This document shows positions 54,208 through 64,000 of a DNA stretch of 64,000 nucleotides, one piece after another. Both the position numbers and the translations under genes were made by a program. The stretch covers positions 62,001-126,000 of the forward strand of contig MPDD01000001.1 of the NCBI GenBank assembly GCA_001874265.1. Direction: 5' to 3'. This DNA is from Bacteroidetes bacterium MedPE-SWsnd-G1 (GTDB taxonomy: Bacteria; Bacteroidota; Bacteroidia; Flavobacteriales; Flavobacteriaceae). Each line of letters opens with the position of its first letter. Position 1 is the first letter of the stretch. Below the pieces are notes generated by a model. The model was not told the DNA's origin. It ran no database searches and saw nothing but the letters and a program-made list of their open reading frames with translations.

Positions 54208-55266
54208 TTATAATATTTTGCTTAATAAATCAATATATATTTTAATTCCTTCTTCAATTTCATTCACATAAATAAACTCATCAGCACTATGTGATCGAGT
54301 TGAGTCGCCCGGCCCTAATTTTAAAGATTGACAACTTAGTGCTGCCTGATCTGATAGTGTAGGAGATCCATAAGTTTCACGACCCATTTCAATTCCAGCT
54401 TGAACAATTGGATGCACTTTATCTATGGCTGATGAATTCAATCGCAAAGATCGTGGTTTTAATTCACACGGAGCCAATTCTTTTAAGATGTCATAGACTT
54501 CTTGGTTTGAGTATTTGTCGTTTACACGAACATCAATAACCAAATGGGTTTCTGCTGGCACTACATTGTGTTGTTTTCCGGCATTTATTTGAGTCACCGT
54601 TAATTTTACTTCACCTAAAACTTCAGAAACCTTTTCAAATTTAAAATCTTTGAACCATTCCAAGGTTTTTATAGTATTATAAATAGAATTGTTATCGTTT
54701 GGATGTGCGGCGTGACTCGGAATTCCTTTCACAACAGCATCAAAAACAACCAAGCCTTTTTCAGCAATCGCTAAATTCATCAAAGTGGGCTCGCCAACAA
54801 TGGCAAATTCAATTTCTGGAAGTAATTTCAGAGTGCTATTCAATCCATTTGCTCCTGAGTTTTCTTCTTCGGCTGATGCTACAACTACAATATTGTAGTT
54901 TAAATTTTCTCGTCTGTAATAATAGGTGAACGTAACGATAAGCGATACCAAACAGCCTCCTGCATCGTTACTTCCTAATCCAAAAAGTTTACCGTCTTCG
55001 ATATGCGCATTGAATGGATCTTTGGTATAGGCAGCGTTCGGTTTTACAGTGTCGTGATGAGAGTTTAAAAGTAAGGTTGGTTTGCTTTTATCAAAATGTT
55101 TGTTATAAGCAATGATGTTATTTCCGTTTCGTTCAAACGGTATGTTATTCGTATTAAACCAAGATTCAATTAACAGCGCAGTACCTTCTTCTTCTTTTGA
55201 AAAAGACTGTGTTTGAATTAAATTTTTGAGTAATTCAATGGCTTCTGTAGTAAGGTTTTCTATCAT
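54208..55266 (-). CDS. argE: N-acylornithine (or N-acylcitrulline) deacylase, M20 family
   Basis: The M20 metallopeptidase fold is shown by LLNSHHDTVKPN, GLGSNDAGGCLVSL, the catalytic SAEEENSGANG and the late RSHSADEFI. In this operon, with an ArgF' that works on acylated ornithine, the substrate should be N-acyl-citrulline rather than N-acetylornithine. The acyl group (acetyl or succinyl) is not evident. At 352 residues it is shorter than E. coli ArgE. It overlaps argB by 4 bases. Confidence 0.83.
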   Translation of the reverse strand: MIENLTTEAIELLKNLIQTQSFSKEEEGTALLIESWFNTNNIPFERNGNNIIAYNKHFDKSKPTLLLNSHHDTVKPNAAYTKDPFNAHIEDGKLFGLGSNDAGGCLVSLIVTFTYYYRRENLNYNIVVVASAEEENSGANGLNSTLKLLPEIEFAIVGEPTLMNLAIAEKGLVVFDAVVKGIPSHAAHPNDNNSIYNTIKTLEWFKDFKFEKVSEVLGEVKLTVTQINAGKQHNVVPAETHLVIDVRVNDKYSNQEVYDILKELAPCELKPRSLRLNSSAIDKVHPIVQAGIEMGRETYGSPTLSDQAALSCQSLKLGPGDSTRSHSADEFIYVNEIEEGIKIYIDLLSKIL

Positions 55267-56045
55267 AATACCAAGGTTGTATGTAATTGATTTTGATTTT
55301 TTAGTATGGTTGGATTGGCAATTTTCACTTCAGATACGCCTCTTTGCAAGGCATTAAAACAATTCAGCATTTTTGGCAGCATTCCATCTGCAATGATACC
55401 TTCTTCTTTTAATTGCTCGTAATACTTTGAGTTGATGTGCTCAATAACCGATTTATCGTCTTCAATGGTTCTTAAAACACCATTCTTTTCGAACGTATAA
55501 ATTAAAGATGTGTCATAGTCTTTTGACATTGCAATTGCCACTTCTGACGCTATAGTATCGGCGTTTGTATTTAGTAATTGACCTTTTTTGTCGTGTGAAA
55601 TTGCGCAAAATACAGGAGTCATGTCATTTTGTAGAAACACATCAATAGCCTTGTGATTCACAACGTCTATATCTCCCGCAAAACCATAATCAATATCTTT
55701 TACAATTCGCTTATGAGCCCGTATTGCATTTACATCGGCACCTGAAAGACCTAGTGCATTACAGTTGTTTTGATGCAATTCCGCTACAATATTTTTGTTT
55801 AGAAGACCAGCATAGACCATGGTCACGATTTCCAAATTGGCCTCATCAGTAATACGTCTACCATTGATCATTTTTGGCGCTAGTCCAATAGAATTTGCTA
55901 ATTCGGTAGCACGTTTTCCGCCTCCGTGAACTAGGATTTTCTTTCCATCTAACTGGGCGAAATCTTTAATAAATGCTGATAAGGTGTTTTTATCATTAAT
56001 AATGTTCCCTCCAATTTTTACAATATGTAGGTTTTGTTTACTCAA
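55263..56045 (-). CDS. argB: N-acylglutamate kinase
   Basis: This amino acid kinase phosphorylates N-acetyl- or N-succinylglutamate. VKIGGNIINDK opens the protein, VHGGGKRATELA is the nucleotide loop (near residue 39), and GADVNAIRA and MLPKM mark the substrate site. At 260 residues it is the compact type. Partner genes decide the acyl group. It overlaps argF' by 8 bases. Confidence 0.92.
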   Translation of the reverse strand: MSKQNLHIVKIGGNIINDKNTLSAFIKDFAQLDGKKILVHGGGKRATELANSIGLAPKMINGRRITDEANLEIVTMVYAGLLNKNIVAELHQNNCNALGLSGADVNAIRAHKRIVKDIDYGFAGDIDVVNHKAIDVFLQNDMTPVFCAISHDKKGQLLNTNADTIASEVAIAMSKDYDTSLIYTFEKNGVLRTIEDDKSVIEHINSKYYEQLKEEGIIADGMLPKMLNCFNALQRGVSEVKIANPTILKNQNQLHTTLVL

Positions 56046-56988
56046 TGTTCTCTAAAATTTTCTTTAATACAATTTGCGCTGAATACGTTCTATTATTTGC
56101 TTGTTCAATAACCAATGAGTTTTCAGAATCAATCACTTCATCTGCAACCACCACATTTCTTCTCACTGGCAAACAGTGCATAAATTTTGCATTGTTGGTT
56201 TTTGCCATTTTATCGGCTGTTATTGTCCAATTCTTTTCTTGTGGAATTACTTGACCATAATTTTGATATGAACTCCAGTTTTTTACATAGATATAATCAG
56301 CATCTTTAAATGCTTTTTCTTGATCGTATTCTACTTTGGAGTCTTTAACAATTTCAGGATTTAAATCATATCCCATTGGATGCGTTATAACAAAATCTGC
56401 ATCTTGTAAGTGCATCATATCTATAAATGAATTTGCAACTGCATGTGGTAATGCCTTTGGGTGTTGTGCCCAAGACAAAACTACTTTCGGTTTATGACTT
56501 ACAGCATTTTCTTCCATAGTAATTGCATCAGCCAATGCTTGCAATGGATGTCCACAAGAACTTTCTAAATTCACAACCGGAATTCCTGATAATTCTTTGA
56601 AACTATTTATAACAATTTCTGCTTCATCTTTTTCCTTATCGGTTAAGGAAGCAAACGCCCTTATGGCTACAATATCGCAATATTGCGCAACAACTTTTGC
56701 CGCTTCTTTTATATGTTCCGATTTGTTCTGATCCATTATAGCGCCATCTTCATATTCTAACTGCCAGCCTTCACTACCAAAGTTCATAACAATAGTATTT
56801 AAACCTAAGTTTTGTGCTGCTTTTTGAGTACTTAATCGTGTTCTTAAACTGTTATTGAAAAACAACAAACAAATGGTTTTTCCTTTACCTAGCTTTTCAA
56901 ATGCTAACTCATTTTTTTTGAGTTCGATTGCCTCTTGAACCGTTTTATCTAGGTTCTCCAAATCGTTTATATGTGCGTAATGTTTCAT
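56038..56988 (-). CDS. argF': N-acylornithine carbamoyltransferase (ArgF')
   Basis: It transfers a carbamoyl group to N-acylated ornithine. NNSLRTRLSTQKAA replaces the STRT loop of ordinary ornithine carbamoyltransferases, ESSCGHPLQALAD is the HPxQ site, and FMHCLPVRRNVVV the late HCLP site. This pattern is that of the N-acetyl- and N-succinylornithine enzymes. The position that separates the two, Pro90 in the Bacteroides fragilis succinyl enzyme and Glu92 in the Xanthomonas acetyl enzyme, is Ser90 here (QNKSEH). The acyl group therefore cannot be read directly. Confidence 0.9.
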   Translation of the reverse strand: MKHYAHINDLENLDKTVQEAIELKKNELAFEKLGKGKTICLLFFNNSLRTRLSTQKAAQNLGLNTIVMNFGSEGWQLEYEDGAIMDQNKSEHIKEAAKVVAQYCDIVAIRAFASLTDKEKDEAEIVINSFKELSGIPVVNLESSCGHPLQALADAITMEENAVSHKPKVVLSWAQHPKALPHAVANSFIDMMHLQDADFVITHPMGYDLNPEIVKDSKVEYDQEKAFKDADYIYVKNWSSYQNYGQVIPQEKNWTITADKMAKTNNAKFMHCLPVRRNVVVADEVIDSENSLVIEQANNRTYSAQIVLKKILENIE

Positions 56989-56990
56989 AC

Positions 56991-57761
56991 TTATGTTGTT
57001 GTAATTTTTGTAAAATCAACCTTGTTGCTAGCGGCATTTTTAATGAAATCATCTTTCATTCCGTTTACAATCCAAGTATCGATTCCAGCATTTTGTGCAA
57101 TGGTCGCCGCTTCTATTTTTGTAGTCATTCCACCTGTACCATGTTTAGATACTGAATGTAAAACCTCTTGCTCTAATTGTGCAATATTTGTAATGGATGT
57201 AATCGTTTCCAATTTGTTATTTTGAATAGATGCTTTAGTGTAAATTCCGTCAGTATTTGTTGCAATTAATAAGATGTCTGCTTTTACCAATTCTGCAGTA
57301 AGTGCCGCTAGTTTATCATTGTCTCCGAACTTAATTTCGTCCGTTGCAACGGTATCATTTTCGTTAATAATGGGAATGTAATTATTTTCAACTAACACAT
57401 TAATAGTGTTCACAATATTTATTTTAGCTTGTTCTTTTTCAAAGTCAGAATAAGACAAAAGACATTGCGATGTTAATAACCCTAATTCCCTAAAGTTTTC
57501 TTGATAAATTCGCATTAAGTGTGGCTGGCCTATAGAGGCTAAGGCTTGTTTTACTGTAACTTCTTTTCCTTCTAATTGTACAAATTGTTTCGCTGCAGCG
57601 ATAGCCCCAGAACTTACAATAATAAATTCATAAGTGTTATTTAAGGCTGCAATTTGACGTGCAATATCCTCAATCTTTCCTCTTGAGATATGATCGGTGC
57701 CCTTTGTCAAAACATTTGAGCCAATTTTTAGAACGATTCTTTTTCTATCTAATTTGTCCAT
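56991..57761 (-). CDS. proB: Glutamate 5-kinase, without PUA domain
   Basis: The first enzyme of proline synthesis phosphorylates glutamate. IVLKIGSNVLTKG starts the amino acid kinase fold, and IVSSGAIAAA, NENDTVATDEIKFGDND and KHGTGGMTTKIEAA follow. The 256 residues end with the kinase domain. The C-terminal PUA domain of E. coli ProB (about 100 residues) is absent, as is usual in Bacteroidota. It overlaps proA by 17 bases. Confidence 0.93.
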   Translation of the reverse strand: MDKLDRKRIVLKIGSNVLTKGTDHISRGKIEDIARQIAALNNTYEFIIVSSGAIAAAKQFVQLEGKEVTVKQALASIGQPHLMRIYQENFRELGLLTSQCLLSYSDFEKEQAKINIVNTINVLVENNYIPIINENDTVATDEIKFGDNDKLAALTAELVKADILLIATNTDGIYTKASIQNNKLETITSITNIAQLEQEVLHSVSKHGTGGMTTKIEAATIAQNAGIDTWIVNGMKDDFIKNAASNKVDFTKITTT

Positions 57762-58938
57762 TGCCTTTAATGTACCACTTGTTGGTTACTAAATGATGAA
57801 GTCCCAATGGACCTCTATGGTGTAATTTATCTGTGCTAATTGCCAATTCTCCACCCAATCCAAATTGACCTCCATCCGTAAATCTACTGGATGCGTTCTG
57901 ATAGACTGCTGCCGAATCTACTGCTTCCATAAAGCCATTTGCTTCGCTATCATTTTTCGTTACAATAACGGCGGAATGCCCTCCGCTATATTTATTTATT
58001 TTTTCAATAGCTTGTTGTATATTAAGTACTTGGCCGATTACAATTTTATAATCTAAAAATTCTTCAAACCAAATATCATCCGAGACAATTTGATTGATTC
58101 GATCATTACTTGATAATTTATAATCACCTAATATTTCAACATCACTTTCTTTCAATTTCGAAATCAATGAATTGATAAACTTATCTTTATTCGGTAATTC
58201 TGAATGTATCAGTACTTTATCTACAGCATTGCATGCCGAAATTTTTGTCGTTTTTCCGTTGTTGATTAAACTTAATGCCAATTCTAAATCGGCCTCTTTA
58301 TCTACAAATACAAAGTTGTTTCCACGGCCACTTACTATTACAGGACATTGTGAGTTTTTCTTAACAAAGGCGATTAATTTCTCTCCACCCCTTGGAACTA
58401 TTAAATCTAATTTTTGAGTTGGATTTTCTAAAAAGGCTTGAGTTTCCGTTCGATTATAATTTAGGTATTCTACCCAATCTTTAGAAATATTATGTTCTTC
58501 TAAGGCTCGATGCCAAAGTGAAACAATCGCGAGGTTAGAATTTATAGATTCTTTTCCTCCTTTTAATAGTATTTTGTTACCAGACTTGAATGCGATTCCA
58601 GCGGCTTCTACAGTAACATCGGGTCTAGATTCATAGATAATCATAACAGTACCAAAAGGGGCCGTTTTATTTACGATATCCATTCCGTTAGGATGCGTGA
58701 ATTTGTACAGTTCTTTATTAATTGGGTCGCTATCCGCTACCAATTGTTCTAAAGAAAGAATCATACCATCAACCTTGGCGTCATTCACAATGAGTCGGTC
58801 ATGCATAGAAATATCATTCCCTTTATAACTTTCTAGATCTATTGAATTAGCATCTATAATTACTTGTTTGTTTAAAGCAATTAAATGAGCCATGGAATGT
58901 AATACCGCATCTTTTTGTTGTCCGGTTAATGGAATCAT
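57745..58938 (-). CDS. proA: Glutamate-5-semialdehyde dehydrogenase
   Basis: The enzyme reduces glutamyl phosphate to the semialdehyde with NADPH. APFGTVMIIYESRPDVTVEA (read as FGTVMIIYESRPDVT), LLKGGKESINSN and IVPRGG are family motifs, and the catalytic Cys lies in KISACNAVDKVL. At 397 residues it is full length. It overlaps argD by 4 bases and proB by 17, so the order is fixed in one transcript. Confidence 0.94.
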   Translation of the reverse strand: MIPLTGQQKDAVLHSMAHLIALNKQVIIDANSIDLESYKGNDISMHDRLIVNDAKVDGMILSLEQLVADSDPINKELYKFTHPNGMDIVNKTAPFGTVMIIYESRPDVTVEAAGIAFKSGNKILLKGGKESINSNLAIVSLWHRALEEHNISKDWVEYLNYNRTETQAFLENPTQKLDLIVPRGGEKLIAFVKKNSQCPVIVSGRGNNFVFVDKEADLELALSLINNGKTTKISACNAVDKVLIHSELPNKDKFINSLISKLKESDVEILGDYKLSSNDRINQIVSDDIWFEEFLDYKIVIGQVLNIQQAIEKINKYSGGHSAVIVTKNDSEANGFMEAVDSAAVYQNASSRFTDGGQFGLGGELAISTDKLHHRGPLGLHHLVTNKWYIKGNGQIR

Positions 58939-60059
58939 AGTTCTTGCTTTAAAGCCTTTATAAACTGATCTATTTGTTCCGTAGTAACTGTAAGAGGTGG
59001 TAAGATTCTCAATAAATTTTTATTCATTGCACCTCCAGTAAATATGTGATGATTGTAAATCAACTTTTTTCTAAGTTCTCCTACTTCAAAATCAAATTCA
59101 ACACCCGTCATCAATCCTTTTCCTTTGATATTTTTAACTTGTGGAATTGTTTTTATTTGTTGTTGAAAATAAGTTGAAATGGCGGTCGCATTAGCCATTA
59201 ACTTCTCTTTTTCAATAATGTCTAATACTGAAATAGCTGCAGTACATGCTAAATGATTTCCACCAAATGTGGTACCCAGTAGGCCAAAATTTGCTTCAAA
59301 TTTTTGAGAAATTAAAACTCCACCAATTGGAAAACCATTTCCCATTCCTTTCGCTGTTGTTATAATATCAGGGTGTATTCCATGATGTTGAAATGCAAAG
59401 AATTTACCTGTTCTACCATATCCAGATTGGATTTCATCTAAAATTAAAATAACACCATATTTTTTGCATACCATTTCTAAATTTTGAAAGAATTCAGGAG
59501 TTCCTTCATCCAATCCACCAACTCCTTGAATGCCTTCAATTATAACAGCGCAAACATCTCCTTTTTTTAATTCCTTTTCTACCAATTCAATGTTGTTTAG
59601 AGGTAAAAATGTGGCGACTTGTTGTTTGTTAATTGGGGCATTAATTTTATCATTGTCGGTAACAGCAACGGCTGCTGAAGTTCTACCGTGAAATGAGTTT
59701 TTAAAAGATAGAACTCTTGATTTCCCTGTATGGAAAGAAGCAACTTTTAAAGCGTTTTCGTTGGCTTCGGCACCTGAGTTGCATAGAAATAATTCATAGT
59801 CTTCGCAGTTAGAAATTGCACCTAATTTTTTAGCGAGTTCTTTTTGAAGTGGGTTTTGAATTGCATTAGAATAGAAACCAATATTGTTTAATTGTTCCGT
59901 AACTTTTGATATGTAATCTGGATGTGTATGGCCAACAGATATAACCCCATGACCACCATATAGATCTAAATATTCTGTTCCGTTTTCGTCCCAAACATTG
60001 CAGTTTAAGGCTTTTACTGGAGTTACATCATAAAGAGGGTATACATTGAATAGGTTCAT
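58935..60059 (-). CDS. argD: N-acylornithine aminotransferase
   Basis: This class III PLP aminotransferase converts N-acylglutamate semialdehyde to N-acylornithine. LCNSGAEANENALKVA binds the cofactor phosphate, LILDEIQSGYGRTGKFFAF holds the conserved Asp, and the PLP Lys is in TTAKGMGNGFPIGG (near residue 233). Ornithine aminotransferase is an alternative, but the operon supports ArgD. At 374 residues it is the normal length. Confidence 0.9.
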   Translation of the reverse strand: MNLFNVYPLYDVTPVKALNCNVWDENGTEYLDLYGGHGVISVGHTHPDYISKVTEQLNNIGFYSNAIQNPLQKELAKKLGAISNCEDYELFLCNSGAEANENALKVASFHTGKSRVLSFKNSFHGRTSAAVAVTDNDKINAPINKQQVATFLPLNNIELVEKELKKGDVCAVIIEGIQGVGGLDEGTPEFFQNLEMVCKKYGVILILDEIQSGYGRTGKFFAFQHHGIHPDIITTAKGMGNGFPIGGVLISQKFEANFGLLGTTFGGNHLACTAAISVLDIIEKEKLMANATAISTYFQQQIKTIPQVKNIKGKGLMTGVEFDFEVGELRKKLIYNHHIFTGGAMNKNLLRILPPLTVTTEQIDQFIKALKQEL

Positions 60060-60062
60060 TTT

Positions 60063-60866
60063 CTAATTTTTTATTTCGTTTATTTTTTCATAAGATTTAA
60101 CCAAGCCTCTTATTAACGCACTACTCATTCCTTGATGTTCCATTTCATTCAATCCAGAAATAGTGCAACCCATTGGCGTTGTTACTTTATCAATCTCTTG
60201 TTCAGGATGACTAGTTTCTGATTTAACTAATAAGCTCGCTGCACCTAATGCTGTTTGCATTGCTAATTCTTGTGCTTCAGCAGCATCGAAACCTAGTTGA
60301 ACAGCACCTTGAGATGTGGCTCTAATTAATCGCATCCAAAAAGCAATACCACTTGCACAAATAACAGTTGCCGCTTGCATTAAATCTTCTTCTATATAAA
60401 GTGTTTTACCTAAAGAATTAAATATTTGTTTTCCACAATGAATATTCTCTTTACCTAATTTGTTAGCACTTAAACAAGTCATAGATTGAGACACCGAAAT
60501 AGCCGTATTAGGCATGCTTCTTATTATTGGAAATTTTTTTCCAATCAAGTTTTCTATATGATCAATGTTTCTTCCGGTTACAGCAGATACAATGCAATGT
60601 TGTTTTGGATCTAATGCAGGTTTTATAGATTCAACCACATTGTCAAATTGTACAGGTTGAACGGCTAAAATTATAACATTCGAATTTTTGACAGCTTCAA
60701 GGTTATCTGAAGTAATTGTAACGTTGGGAATATGTTCAAAAAGACTTAAAGTGGAGGTGTTCCTTTTGCTCAGGTATAGTGATTCTACATCTATATCACT
60801 TTGTCCTACAATTCCTAAGGCAATTGAATACCCTAAATTTCCTACTCCAATAATAGCAATTTTCAT
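60063..60866 (-). CDS. proC: Pyrroline-5-carboxylate reductase
   Basis: The last step of proline synthesis. The Rossmann loop IAIIGVGNLGYSIALG begins the protein, SMPNTAISVSQSMTCL (near residue 118) and the late TPMGCTISGLNEME are ProC signatures. At 267 residues it is the usual length. With proA and proB it gives the complete proline route inside the arginine operon. Confidence 0.92.
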   Translation of the reverse strand: MKIAIIGVGNLGYSIALGIVGQSDIDVESLYLSKRNTSTLSLFEHIPNVTITSDNLEAVKNSNVIILAVQPVQFDNVVESIKPALDPKQHCIVSAVTGRNIDHIENLIGKKFPIIRSMPNTAISVSQSMTCLSANKLGKENIHCGKQIFNSLGKTLYIEEDLMQAATVICASGIAFWMRLIRATSQGAVQLGFDAAEAQELAMQTALGAASLLVKSETSHPEQEIDKVTTPMGCTISGLNEMEHQGMSSALIRGLVKSYEKINEIKN

Positions 60867-60886
60867 AATGTTTAATTTTTTTAAGT

Positions 60887-61864
60887 TTAGAAATAAGTTG
60901 ATTTTAGATTTAGCCCAAGGTTTTCTTCTAAACCATAAATGAGATTCATGTTTTGAATCGCTTGTCCAGAAGCACCTTTAAGTAAATTGTCAATAGCGCT
61001 AGTAATAAGTAGTTTGTTATTGTGTTTATGTAAATGAATAAAGCAATTATTGGTGTTTACAACTTGCTTTAAATGAACAGGGTTTTTACTTAAATGGGTA
61101 TAAGGAGCATCTTCATAGAATTTTTTATATAAAGCATATGCATCTTCAAGTTTACCTTCAAAATCTGTATAAATAGAAGCGAAAATGCCTCTACTAAAAT
61201 TTCCTCTGTTAGGAATAAATATCAAGTCTTTATCAAATCCGTTTTGCAAAGATTCTAAAGTCTCTCCAATTTCTCCAAGATGTTGATGTGTAAACACTTT
61301 ATATGTAGAAAAGTTATTGTCTCTCCAAGCAAAATGAGTAGTAGCGCCAGGTGAAACTCCGGCTCCAGTTGCGCCAGTTGTAGCATTAATATGAATATCA
61401 GTATTTAAAATACCTTCTTTAGCCAATGGTAATAATGCGAGTTGAATTGCAGTTGCAAAACAACCTGGATTTGCAATGTTTGATGCTTTTTCAATTTCAT
61501 CTTTATTTAATTCAGGTAAACCATATACGAATTCTTTTCCTTCGAAGTTTGCATCATTGTTTAATCTAAAGTCATTACTTAAATCAATGATTTTAGTATT
61601 CGTAGAAAACGAATTTTTTTGTAAAAAAGCGGTGGAATTTCCGTGACCTAGACATAGAAAAACCACATCTACATCCGAATTGATTTCGCTTGAAAACGAT
61701 TGGTCCGTCTGCCCAACTAAATCTTGATGAACTGCATATATTTTGTTCCCTGCATTCGAAGTTGAATACACAAAATCAATCTCAACAGCCGGATGATGTA
61801 TTAATAACCTAATTAATTCACCTGCTGTATAACCTGCTCCTCCAATAATTCCTGCTTTTAACAT
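60887..61864 (-). CDS. argC: N-acyl-gamma-glutamyl-phosphate reductase
   Basis: The enzyme reduces the acylglutamyl phosphate to its semialdehyde. GIIGGAGYTAGELIRLL is the NADPH loop and NPGCFATAIQLALLPL (near residue 137) carries the catalytic Cys. HQHLGEI and the tail NLIYGLEE are also typical. At 325 residues it fits the family. It lies 3 bases after argG. Confidence 0.94.
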   Translation of the reverse strand: MLKAGIIGGAGYTAGELIRLLIHHPAVEIDFVYSTSNAGNKIYAVHQDLVGQTDQSFSSEINSDVDVVFLCLGHGNSTAFLQKNSFSTNTKIIDLSNDFRLNNDANFEGKEFVYGLPELNKDEIEKASNIANPGCFATAIQLALLPLAKEGILNTDIHINATTGATGAGVSPGATTHFAWRDNNFSTYKVFTHQHLGEIGETLESLQNGFDKDLIFIPNRGNFSRGIFASIYTDFEGKLEDAYALYKKFYEDAPYTHLSKNPVHLKQVVNTNNCFIHLHKHNNKLLITSAIDNLLKGASGQAIQNMNLIYGLEENLGLNLKSTYF

Positions 61865-61867
61865 GGT

Positions 61868-63052
61868 TTACTTATTTACGTGGTTAAATATTTTTCCAGA
61901 GTTCGATAAGATTTTAATGAATCCTTTCGCTTCATCAGCACTCCATCCTTTATTCATTTCGCCATAACTTCCAAAAGAAGCATTCATTAAGTCGTTGTCA
62001 GATTCAATTCCTTCAACAATAAATCTGTATGGATACAAGCTTACAATAACATCACCTGTTACCTGTTTCTGGGTGTCTTCTAAAAACACCTCAATATTCC
62101 GCATCACTTCATCTAAATACTGCCCTTCGTGCAACATCATTCCATACCAGTTGCCCAACTGCTCTTTCCAATGCTGTTGCCATTTTGTTTGCGTATGTTT
62201 TTCTAAAGTGTGGTGTGCTTTTATAATTACCAAAGATGCAGCTGCTTCAAAGCCAACTCTTCCTTTAATTCCGATAATTGTATCACCTACATGCATATCT
62301 CTTCCAATGGCGAATTTAGAGGCAATTTCTTCCAATTTTACGATATTGTTTACTGAAGTATCTTTTTCACCATTTAAAGCTACTAATTGTCCTTTATGAA
62401 AAGACAATACAACTTTTTCCGTCCCCTCTTTTTCTAATTGACTTGGATATGCTTCTTCGGGTAAGGTTAAGTTAGATGTTAAGGTTTCATCACCGCCAAC
62501 ACTAGTTCCCCAAAGCCCTTTGTTAATTGAATATTTTGCTTTTTCCCAAGGTAAATCCAACCCATTTTCTTTTAAGTAATTAATTGAATATTCTCTCGAT
62601 AATTTGTTGTCTCTTATCGGTGTGATGATTTCAATTTCGGGAGCCAATGTTTGAAAAATTAAATCGAACCTTACCTGATCATTTCCTGCACCCGTAGAAC
62701 CATGAGCAATATATTTTGCATCAATACTTTTTGCATAATTCACAATTTCAATTGCTTGTACAATTCTTTCAGCACTAACAGATAATGGATAGGTGTTGTT
62801 TTTTAATACGTTTCCATAAATAAGGTACTTTACAACATTGCTATAAAAAGTTTCAACGGCGTCTATAGATAAGTAGGACGACGCTCCCAATTGAATCGCT
62901 CTTTCTTCAATATTCTTGATTTCATCTTTTGAAAAACCACCAGTATTTACACTTACGGCATGTACATCATACCCTTCTTCTTTTGATAAATATTTTGCAC
63001 AATATGAGGTGTCCAACCCTCCGCTATATGCTAAAACTAATTTCTTGCCCAT
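61868..63052 (-). CDS. argG: Argininosuccinate synthase
   Basis: The enzyme joins citrulline and aspartate using ATP. The PP-loop KLVLAYSGGLDTSYCAKYL is at the N-terminus, HGSTGAGNDQVRFDL lies near residue 117, and GLWGTSVGGDE near residue 188. At 394 residues it is full length. It follows the GNAT gene after one base, so it is second in the operon. Confidence 0.95.
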   Translation of the reverse strand: MGKKLVLAYSGGLDTSYCAKYLSKEEGYDVHAVSVNTGGFSKDEIKNIEERAIQLGASSYLSIDAVETFYSNVVKYLIYGNVLKNNTYPLSVSAERIVQAIEIVNYAKSIDAKYIAHGSTGAGNDQVRFDLIFQTLAPEIEIITPIRDNKLSREYSINYLKENGLDLPWEKAKYSINKGLWGTSVGGDETLTSNLTLPEEAYPSQLEKEGTEKVVLSFHKGQLVALNGEKDTSVNNIVKLEEIASKFAIGRDMHVGDTIIGIKGRVGFEAAASLVIIKAHHTLEKHTQTKWQQHWKEQLGNWYGMMLHEGQYLDEVMRNIEVFLEDTQKQVTGDVIVSLYPYRFIVEGIESDNDLMNASFGSYGEMNKGWSADEAKGFIKILSNSGKIFNHVNK

Positions 63053-63053
63053 C

Positions 63054-63695
63054 TTATTTTTTGCCTTTTTTCAAGGACTTTTTTAAAAACAATGCTTGTT
63101 TAATATTCTTTAAACGTGTCCATACTTTTTTATCGTACGGATGTTTATGGATTTCTTTTTGTAAAACTTCTTCTTTTTTTGGATTGTACAGCATGCCTGT
63201 ACATAAGCACATTTTTTGTTCTTTTAATTTAAGAATTTCATAATTGGTACAGGTTTGACATCCAGCCCAAAATTTTTTGTCATCTGTTAATTCTGAAAAT
63301 GGTACGGGTTTGTAACCTAATTCAGAGTTAATTTTCATAACAGCCAATCCAGTTGTGATCCCAAATATTTTTGCATCGGGGAATTTTTCTAGAGAATAAT
63401 CAAAAATCTTCTTTTTGATTTTTTTAGCTAAACCTCTATTCCTAAAATCAGGGTGAACAATTAAACCAGAATGAGCAACATACTTACCGTGATCCCATTT
63501 TTCTATATAGCAAAATCCAGCAAACTTATCGCCTTCGATAGCAATAACGGCGTTGTTGTTCTTCAGTTTTGCAGTAATATATTCAACAGTTCTTCTTGCA
63601 ATCCCTGTTCCTCTTTGAGAGGCAGAATTCTCAATAGTGTCGCAAATATCTTGTGCGTATCTAATATGTGATATATCAGCAATTACAATTTTCAT
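63054..63695 (-). CDS. GNAT acyltransferase, probable N-acylglutamate synthase of the arg operon
   Basis: Residues 1-150 form a GNAT fold with the acyl-CoA loop VHPDFRNRGLAKKIKKKIF. The C-terminal part is unusual, with FWAGCQTCTNYEIL and QKMCLCTGMLY, four or five Cys that could bind metal, and a basic tail. No argA or argJ is seen in the operon, and this gene is its first member, so acylation of glutamate is the likely job. Related Bacteroidota proteins have been linked to N-succinylglutamate synthesis. The acyl donor is an inference. Confidence 0.75.
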   Translation of the reverse strand: MKIVIADISHIRYAQDICDTIENSASQRGTGIARRTVEYITAKLKNNNAVIAIEGDKFAGFCYIEKWDHGKYVAHSGLIVHPDFRNRGLAKKIKKKIFDYSLEKFPDAKIFGITTGLAVMKINSELGYKPVPFSELTDDKKFWAGCQTCTNYEILKLKEQKMCLCTGMLYNPKKEEVLQKEIHKHPYDKKVWTRLKNIKQALFLKKSLKKGKK

Positions 63696-63749
63696 TGTAA
63701 ATTATGATTAAATTATAAAAAATTTGAAATGTGTCTTTGTCTTGAAAGC

Positions 63750-63771
63750 GGAATTGGACTCACCTAATTCC
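63750..63771 (-). promoter_or_regulatory. Hairpin in the arg-pro leader
   Basis: GGAATT-A-GG and CC-AATTCC pair over TGAGT, an 8-bp stem with one bulged A, between the leader frame and the first gene. No T tract follows on the minus strand, so it is not a standard terminator. Confidence 0.45.
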
Positions 63772-63787
63772 ATGAAATAGAATAACC

Positions 63788-63807
63788 CTTACGGGCGACG
63801 ACGTAAG
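63788..63807 (-). promoter_or_regulatory. Hairpin over the Arg codons of the leader
   Basis: CTTACG (codons 14-16 of the leader frame) pairs with CGTAAG, which spans the stop codon. A ribosome translating or stalled on the Arg codons would open this stem, as in the 1:2 hairpin of classic attenuators. Confidence 0.45.
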
Positions 63808-63848
63808 CGAGGGAAAAATGTACGTGTATGTGTGTTTCCTACTTTCAC
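63789..63848 (-). CDS. Candidate arg-pro leader peptide (19 aa)
   Basis: From GTG to TAA the frame encodes MKVGNTHTRTFFPRLRRRP. Five of 19 residues are Arg and two are Pro, with RLRRRP directly before the stop, in a genome where Arg is rare. It lies 93 bases upstream of the first gene of an operon making exactly arginine and proline. The GTG start is only 4 bases after a -7 element, so the real start of transcription or translation is uncertain. No clear terminator follows. Confidence 0.6.
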   Translation of the reverse strand: MKVGNTHTRTFFPRLRRRP

Positions 63849-63852
63849 GTGG

Positions 63853-63860
63853 CAAACGTA
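63853..63860 (-). promoter_or_regulatory. -7 element of the arg-pro operon
   Basis: The minus strand reads TACGTTTG, an exact TAnnTTTG. A TTG at the usual -33 distance is missing. If used, transcription starts at or close to the leader frame's GTG. Confidence 0.5.
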
Positions 63861-63960: not shown

Positions 63961-63991
63961 TTTGGAGGTAATAAAATAGGTTTTATATTTG
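63961..63991 (+). promoter_or_regulatory. Consensus promoter reading out of the window
   Basis: TTTG at 63961-63964, 19 bases, then TATATTTG at 63984-63991: both elements and the spacing match the Bacteroidota consensus exactly. It points rightwards to a gene beyond the edge. Confidence 0.6.
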
Positions 63992-64000
63992 CAATGTAAA

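Follow-up and report, generated by a model that had tools for sequence, protein, structure and literature searches.

A putative arginine-sensing leader peptide without an intrinsic terminator upstream of the arginine operon of Flavobacteriaceae

Results

An arginine-rich leader frame and two hairpins precede the arg-pro operon

The window (the whole stretch of DNA analysed here, 64,000 nucleotides in length) carries on its minus strand an operon that begins with a GNAT acetyltransferase gene (63054..63695), assigned with Pfam and giving no NCBIfam match at 1e-10, and continues with argG, argC, proC, argD, proA, proB, an N-acetylornithine carbamoyltransferase gene, argB and an argE-like gene (54208..63052). 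The NCBIfam cut-off was reached by argG, argC, proC, proA, proB, argB and the N-acetylornithine carbamoyltransferase gene, with argD and the argE-like gene giving family matches below it. Upstream of GNAT and on the same strand lies a short open frame (63789..63848), which starts with GTG at 63848, ends with the stop codon TAA at 63791-63789 and encodes MKVGNTHTRTFFPRLRRRP. Its 19 codons include five for Arg and two for Pro, as an earlier note on this DNA had read them, and we confirm that reading on the minus strand; the C-terminal end is Arg-Arg-Arg-Pro-stop. The start codon follows, at a spacing of 4 nt, the sequence TACGTTTG (63853..63860, minus strand), which corresponds to TAnnTTTG, the Bacteroidota -7 consensus, and no good -33 element was seen by eye at the usual distance from it.

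Two hairpins, which the earlier note had placed at the Arg codons and further downstream, were located on the minus strand at 63796-63785 and 63771-63750. Hairpin 1 (63785..63796; GCCC-GUAA-GGGU) takes in the last Arg codon, the Pro codon and the stop codon, and within the window the pairing CTTACG/CGTAAG competes with it. Hairpin 2 (63750..63771; GGAATT-A-GG-UGAGU-CC-AATTCC) covaries in relatives and is separated from the first gene by a G-poor spacer (63696..63749, minus strand). Folding of the window leader was no better than that of shuffled sequences (z -0.60, single sequence), so that the one window sequence is weak evidence alone; we nevertheless regard the leader as an element above chance since relatives show the open frame, Arg enrichment, a start codon shortly after the promoter box and covarying hairpins.

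A divergent his operon, which begins just beyond the end of the window (63982-64000), has a leader of its own, MNFNRRHHHHFTLTIQVS, as well as a strong terminator, and the two operons, both of them attenuated, have one intergenic region in common. In 2 of 130 arg loci, both from the same genus, a His-run frame faces away within 337-500 nt upstream.

The leader frame is conserved in Flavobacteriaceae

A covariance model of the tail, hairpin 1, linker and hairpin 2, built from 23 sequences, was matched by 194 of the 299 genomes of Flavobacteriaceae, leaving 105 with no match. In 12 of the 194 even the best match is weak, with E above 2e-5, and may be due to chance. The analysis below covers 130 loci from these 194 matches, 30 obtained as loci and a further 100 fetched, and leaves aside about 20 listed matches, some because of short contigs and others to keep the fetched set at 100, together with the weaker ones. 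A GNAT gene lies downstream on the same strand in 128 of the 130, mostly ~100 nt away, and two loci (L127 and L181) had no GNAT match within 900 nt. Of 80 loci found through GNAT itself, 21 have the R-R-P tail no more than 330 nt upstream, and Maribacter, Leeuwenhoekiella and Psychroflexus are among the genera with this type. When 196 genomes sampled from the order were searched, model matches at E 4e-9 or better occurred only inside Flavobacteriaceae. Two weak matches in other families of the order are also upstream of GNAT and read RRPLGV-stop and RRPLWVLN-stop, and three of 12 weaker-match loci (L242, L243 and L252 of L242-L253) precede GNAT, the remaining nine looking like chance matches.

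The tail of the leader reads R-R-P in 121 loci, R-R-T in four, P-R-P in four and Q-R-P in one, and a stop codon follows the tripeptide directly in 118 of 130, in 117 of these after Pro; these frequencies are partly selected, because the model contains R-R-P and stop columns. We therefore give separately the 20 codons upstream of the tail, which lie largely outside the modelled columns, the last two being inside the model. Across the 130 loci this stretch contains 2 stop codons in the leader frame versus 135 and 175 in the other frames, and 326 Arg codons versus 121 and 87. Of the 572 Arg codons in the leaders, 510 are CGC or CGT (260 of 317 when the two modelled ones are set aside), and in the ten operon genes of the window CGC accounts for 0 and CGT for 7 of 69 Arg codons, a comparison of many genomes with one. 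The earlier note had made its case depend on short Arg/Pro-rich frames at this place in close relatives, and Arg-rich leader frames are indeed kept there.

In one locus, from Tenacibaculum sp. M341, the motif's own tail is R-A-P-stop, and a second frame, MHTNNKTNQITVRRRPNGRR, with R-R-R-P lies upstream of the motif, ~256-280 nt from GNAT; these are possibly tandem leaders.

An exact TAnnTTTG box is present in 39 of the 130 loci, including the window, the other 91 having no exact box. A start codon 4-9 nt past the box was found in the leader frame in 36 of these 39 loci and in neither of the other two frames (0 and 0), and the spacing is 7 nt in 25. The closeness of the GTG to the -7 box, which had been raised in the earlier note as a point against the leader, is thus no objection, since an in-frame start at this distance is the usual arrangement among exact-box relatives. 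Given the usual distance from a -7 box to the transcription start site, the short spacing from box to start codon would put the 5' end within a few bases of the start codon.

The hairpins covary and hairpin 2 has a nearly fixed apex

Covariation was evaluated in 100 loci (98 distinct sequences) aligned to the covariance model, an alignment that is fitted to the structure and so leans towards it. Changes on both sides were seen in six of the eight pairs of hairpin 2, and hairpins 1 and 2 together gave 46 cells with both-sided changes compared with 9.1 in shuffles, and seven such pairs compared with 3.5. Over the whole structure 94.6% of cells were paired, versus 89.1% in shuffles. A control slid by +1 column had more both-sided cells (69, against 46 for the structure) but only three such pairs instead of seven, with 53.6% of cells paired and a score of 0.108 versus 0.166. 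Hairpin 2 includes one pair, out of eight, that fails to form in 37 of the 98 rows. In hairpin 1 a single pair changes from C-G to A-U on both sides, in four sequences that are all R-R-T loci, and the other three pairs show no both-sided change in the aligned relatives. These R-R-T loci (L212-L215; L118, L122, L178 and L182) represent a natural compensatory change of CCC/GGG to CAC/GTG in hairpin 1.

RNAalifold, run on a model-free alignment of 35 sequences, returned the same two hairpins with 12 conserved pairs and no third conserved structure. The apex of hairpin 2, GG-UGNGU-CC, is nearly fixed, with the loop reading TGAGT in 103 loci, TGTGT in 17 and TGCGT in nine, and one locus unmatched (n=130), and its distance from the leader tail is constrained, with 33-39 nt between the first Arg codon of the tripeptide and AGGTG in 130 of 130 loci. 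No Rfam family matched the leader region at its gathering score, and matches were sub-threshold only. A riboswitch was discarded as a candidate, further conserved structure being absent from the alignment.

A nearly invariant apex on a covarying stem is what one would expect if a protein or ligand bound a structured RNA here and the reading frame were accidental. We consider this highly improbable, given that the frame is open, that Arg is enriched in one frame and that start codons occur in the leader frame only; furthermore, different Arg codons are used across families, and the 35 sequences have only 12 conserved pairs and nothing further, with no Rfam match at gathering score.

The arg leaders lack an intrinsic terminator after hairpin 2

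Scanning for intrinsic terminators gave terminator-like sites in 12 of the 130 arg leaders, compared with 5-9 of 130 in shuffled arg stretches, and none (0/130) at or after hairpin 2. Stretches of equal length upstream of hisG contained a terminator in 30 of 30 loci when scanned by script, and in pheA leaders we recognised one by eye in 11 of the 14 loci looked at, out of 30. In the sampled family genomes his and phe leaders encode peptides rich in His or Phe, after which come a hairpin and a T run; like the arg leader, these attenuators place a peptide enriched in the operon's end product before the biosynthetic genes, and they differ from it in their terminators (30/30 for his, 11/14 by eye for phe) and, for his, in an antiterminator pairing (25 usable loci). 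For the arg loci, pairing between leader and hairpin 2 was matched or bettered by permuted partners in 19 of 20 runs, whereas in the same kind of test on the his control, with 25 of 30 loci usable, permuted partners were as good in 0 of 20. An alternative helix of eight pairs between CUCGCUUA and UAGGUGAG, seen by eye in the window, was rejected as a general feature by this permutation test.

Eleven of the 12 terminator-like sites sit at hairpin 1, the one in the window among them, where a lax scan flags the Arg-codon hairpin followed by TTATTCT; after hairpin 2 the absence of a T-rich terminator recorded in the earlier note holds. As the linker that follows is also U-rich (54.6% T in arg leaders), hairpin 1 could be a poor terminator, and in classic attenuation hairpin 1 and linker would form a weak intrinsic terminator, opened by the ribosome itself. 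We rate this as very unlikely: the stem is short and the T run broken, 12 of 130 is little above shuffles and far from the 30 of 30 for hisG, and hairpin 2 is left unexplained. The suggestion that the mechanism may differ from classic attenuation is in line with the negative results for both terminator and antiterminator pairing. By sequence, the locus would share with his/trp-type attenuators the leader frame with codons for the product amino acid but neither the intrinsic terminator nor the antiterminator, and would agree with Rho-dependent leader-peptide control of the orf34/TnaC type in having a leader frame without an intrinsic terminator.

A rho gene is present in the window genome. The candidate Rho loading region is the spacer between hairpin 2 and the first gene, which in the 130 loci contains 5.3% G and 15.8% C, a composition that is suggestive only; the 42 nt before hisG contain 11.3% G (30 loci). 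A search of 60 his and phe loci with the model retrieved only the arg copy of the window genome itself and a partial match (E 0.09), and hairpin 2 was dismissed as a general part of attenuators on this result.

Proline content does not follow the proline genes

The earlier note had proposed that one leader senses both tRNA-Arg and tRNA-Pro, in keeping with the gene content, so that the arg-pro operon would be switched on by a stall on the Arg run or on the Pro codons alike. We scored proB as present when it lay at most 12 kb downstream in the same orientation on one contig, contig breaks counting as absence, and found it in at least 52 of 130 operons, the strong proB matches standing at the head of those listed. 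Among the matches listed, the last 18 leader residues contain on average 2.52 Pro with proB (52 loci) and 2.49 without (78 loci), and the part upstream of the last three residues 1.52 and 1.56, respectively (p 0.90). In the 10 codons upstream of the tail Pro is no commoner in the leader frame than in one of the wrong frames (170 versus 62 and 171 in the other frames), unlike Arg (292 versus 72 and 39). Furthermore, two operons that lack pro genes altogether (G059 and G131) still have R-R-P, and three of the four R-R-T operons have retained proC.

In favour of a dual sensor, Pro follows the last Arg in 126 of 130 loci, all four R-R-T operons lack proA and proB, and 17 of the 20 fully read operons, a chosen set that includes nine picked for unusual tails, contain proC. 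Likewise, leaders ending directly in Pro are somewhat commoner among the matches listed with proB (51/52) than without (66/78; Fisher p 0.015, a value that ignores kinship), which leaves room for a minor role of proline. Operon content nevertheless rejects proline coupling as a strict rule, and we hold a dual sensor to be distinctly unlikely. Pro is kept in the tail, but a place in hairpin 1 and around the stop codon accounts for it better than proline sensing does. The earlier interpretation thus survives in its Arg-rich leader, which relatives keep, and not in the matching of Pro to the proline genes.

Discussion

A model for arginine control and its relation to known systems

An arginine sensor at this locus is very probably real, because so many relatives keep both the Arg-rich frame and the hairpin. 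We think it probable, from comparative sequence, that the frame encodes a regulatory leader peptide of the arginine operon which works without an intrinsic terminator. Transcription would start almost at the leader start codon, so that ribosomes would begin on a message with hardly any 5' untranslated region. Under a shortage of Arg-tRNA, a ribosome pausing on the Arg codons would let RNA polymerase continue into the operon; with arginine in good supply, the ribosome would reach the stop codon and leave, and hairpins 1 and 2 could then form behind the polymerase. The early stop would most likely be due either to Rho, acting on the G-poor spacer left exposed, or to a factor binding the conserved apex of hairpin 2. 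We favour such terminator-less, perhaps Rho-dependent, pausing on Arg codons because there is no terminator after hairpin 2, leader and hairpin 2 pair no better than permuted partners, a rho gene is present and the spacer is G-poor.

The nearest described case, likened by its features, is orf34/speF of Salmonella, for which the part of PMC6386406 drawn on here describes consecutive Arg codons in a short leader frame, control by arginine, no intrinsic terminator and Rho-dependent early termination. There, transcription starts 516 nt upstream of speF, and arginine lowers expression of the ornithine decarboxylase gene via mRNA decay (PMC6386406, same part). Consecutive Arg codons, and Rho if our proposal is right, would be common to both systems; what sets the present locus apart from that description is an operon that makes arginine, a short and nearly leaderless leader and a conserved hairpin 2.

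The Arg-Pro-stop end, found in 117 of 130 loci, also recalls E. coli TnaC, whose control is Rho-dependent and which, as described in the part of PMC8429421 used here, stalls with Pro24 in the P site and Arg23 before it, blocking Rho. By analogy, the leader could be an arrest peptide that senses a free metabolite, such as arginine or ornithine, stalls the ribosome at its stop codon and so shields a Rho site. TnaC, however, responds to free Trp by way of nascent-chain contacts (PMC8429421, same part), whereas a comparison by eye of the 130 family loci shows the arg leaders to keep only the tail, the chain upstream of it differing in both length and sequence. In addition, 12 of 130 loci have no stop after the tripeptide and four have Thr for Pro, tails outside Flavobacteriaceae end otherwise, and TnaC itself tolerates changes of residue 23 (PMC8429421, same part). 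An arrest peptide is in our view unlikely as an explanation of the family leaders.

Leader-peptide attenuation as such is already on record in the family, as structured 5' regions of F. psychrophilum gave clues for it at amino-acid operons, with pheA and hisG elements named (PMC9723704); the section on 5' regions in the main text of that paper names no arg element. The literature searched, mostly open-access articles in their main text, and Rfam contained no description of an arg leader in Bacteroidota, and an arg leader of this form, the missing terminator and hairpin 2 are new relative to that literature, general leader-peptide attenuation in Flavobacteriaceae having been reported before (main text of PMC9723704). 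The locus offers a simple, testable candidate arginine sensor for a large group of bacteria, in which, to our knowledge, the control of arginine synthesis has been little studied. It also offers a contrast within one family, his operons (and mostly phe operons too) having terminator attenuators and arg operons something else. A factor acting at hairpin 2, once found, would show how transcription is stopped without an intrinsic terminator, and the near-leaderless start would offer a clean setting in which to study translation that lacks a Shine-Dalgarno site.

Arginine leaders in the genus Flavobacterium and beyond the family

In the genus Flavobacterium, 38 of 42 loci have a different conserved leader, typically MNKISLHITSLSRTNSPITSPEVRTLSL, and the Arg run is therefore not universal. 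By script, this leader starts 5 nt past the -7 box in 29 of the 38 loci. It (SLSRT...TSPEVR...; loci among L003-L043 and L057) lies ~320-390 nt upstream of GNAT, with CGG as the Arg codons in those read. With the whole peptide conserved, it would fit an arrest peptide better than the family leader does. Three of the four other loci (L039, L045 and L055) carry R-R-P, and in L039 and L045 the Arg codons are CGA CGA, with hairpin 1 changed to match.

Outside Flavobacteriaceae we scanned, without the model, 79 loci found through GNAT (61 from a genome sample and 18 named). An Arg/Pro score of at least 4, for a frame ending 60-200 nt upstream, was obtained in 41 of them and a lower one in 38. The reverse strand reached this score in 6 loci and 20 mononucleotide shuffles in 0-6; score and threshold had been chosen after leaders were looked at. 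In the 52 loci scoring at least 3 the Arg codons are AGG (56), CGA (44), CGC (28), CGT (26), AGA (17) and CGG (6). With AGG and CGA thus prominent outside the family, it appears to be the amino acid arginine, and not a nucleotide string, that is kept across the class.

A hairpin with a five-base loop was found in 29 of 41 loci examined outside the family, and in six of these the loop is U-N-N-G-Y, compared with 0.24 on average and at most 2 in shuffles. More cases, with bulges, were seen by eye, and these loops are no more than suggestive. We offer as a tentative idea, which we would not yet call likely, that these leaders represent a Bacteroidia-wide type of attenuator, one that combines an Arg-codon leader, translated from an almost leaderless message, with a sequence-specific hairpin (a U-N-N-G-Y loop on two G-C pairs) that would replace the terminator and be read by a factor, Rho, the polymerase or the ribosome. 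The hairpin 2 apex in Flavobacteriaceae also contains AGGUG, and direct contact with the ribosome is conceivable there, since AGGUG is, we assume, complementary to the 3' end of 16S rRNA.

In Chitinophagaceae and relatives (L065, L066, L070-L073, L077 and L079) we observed upstream of GNAT a leader type ending VRR-stop, mostly PFWVRR-stop.
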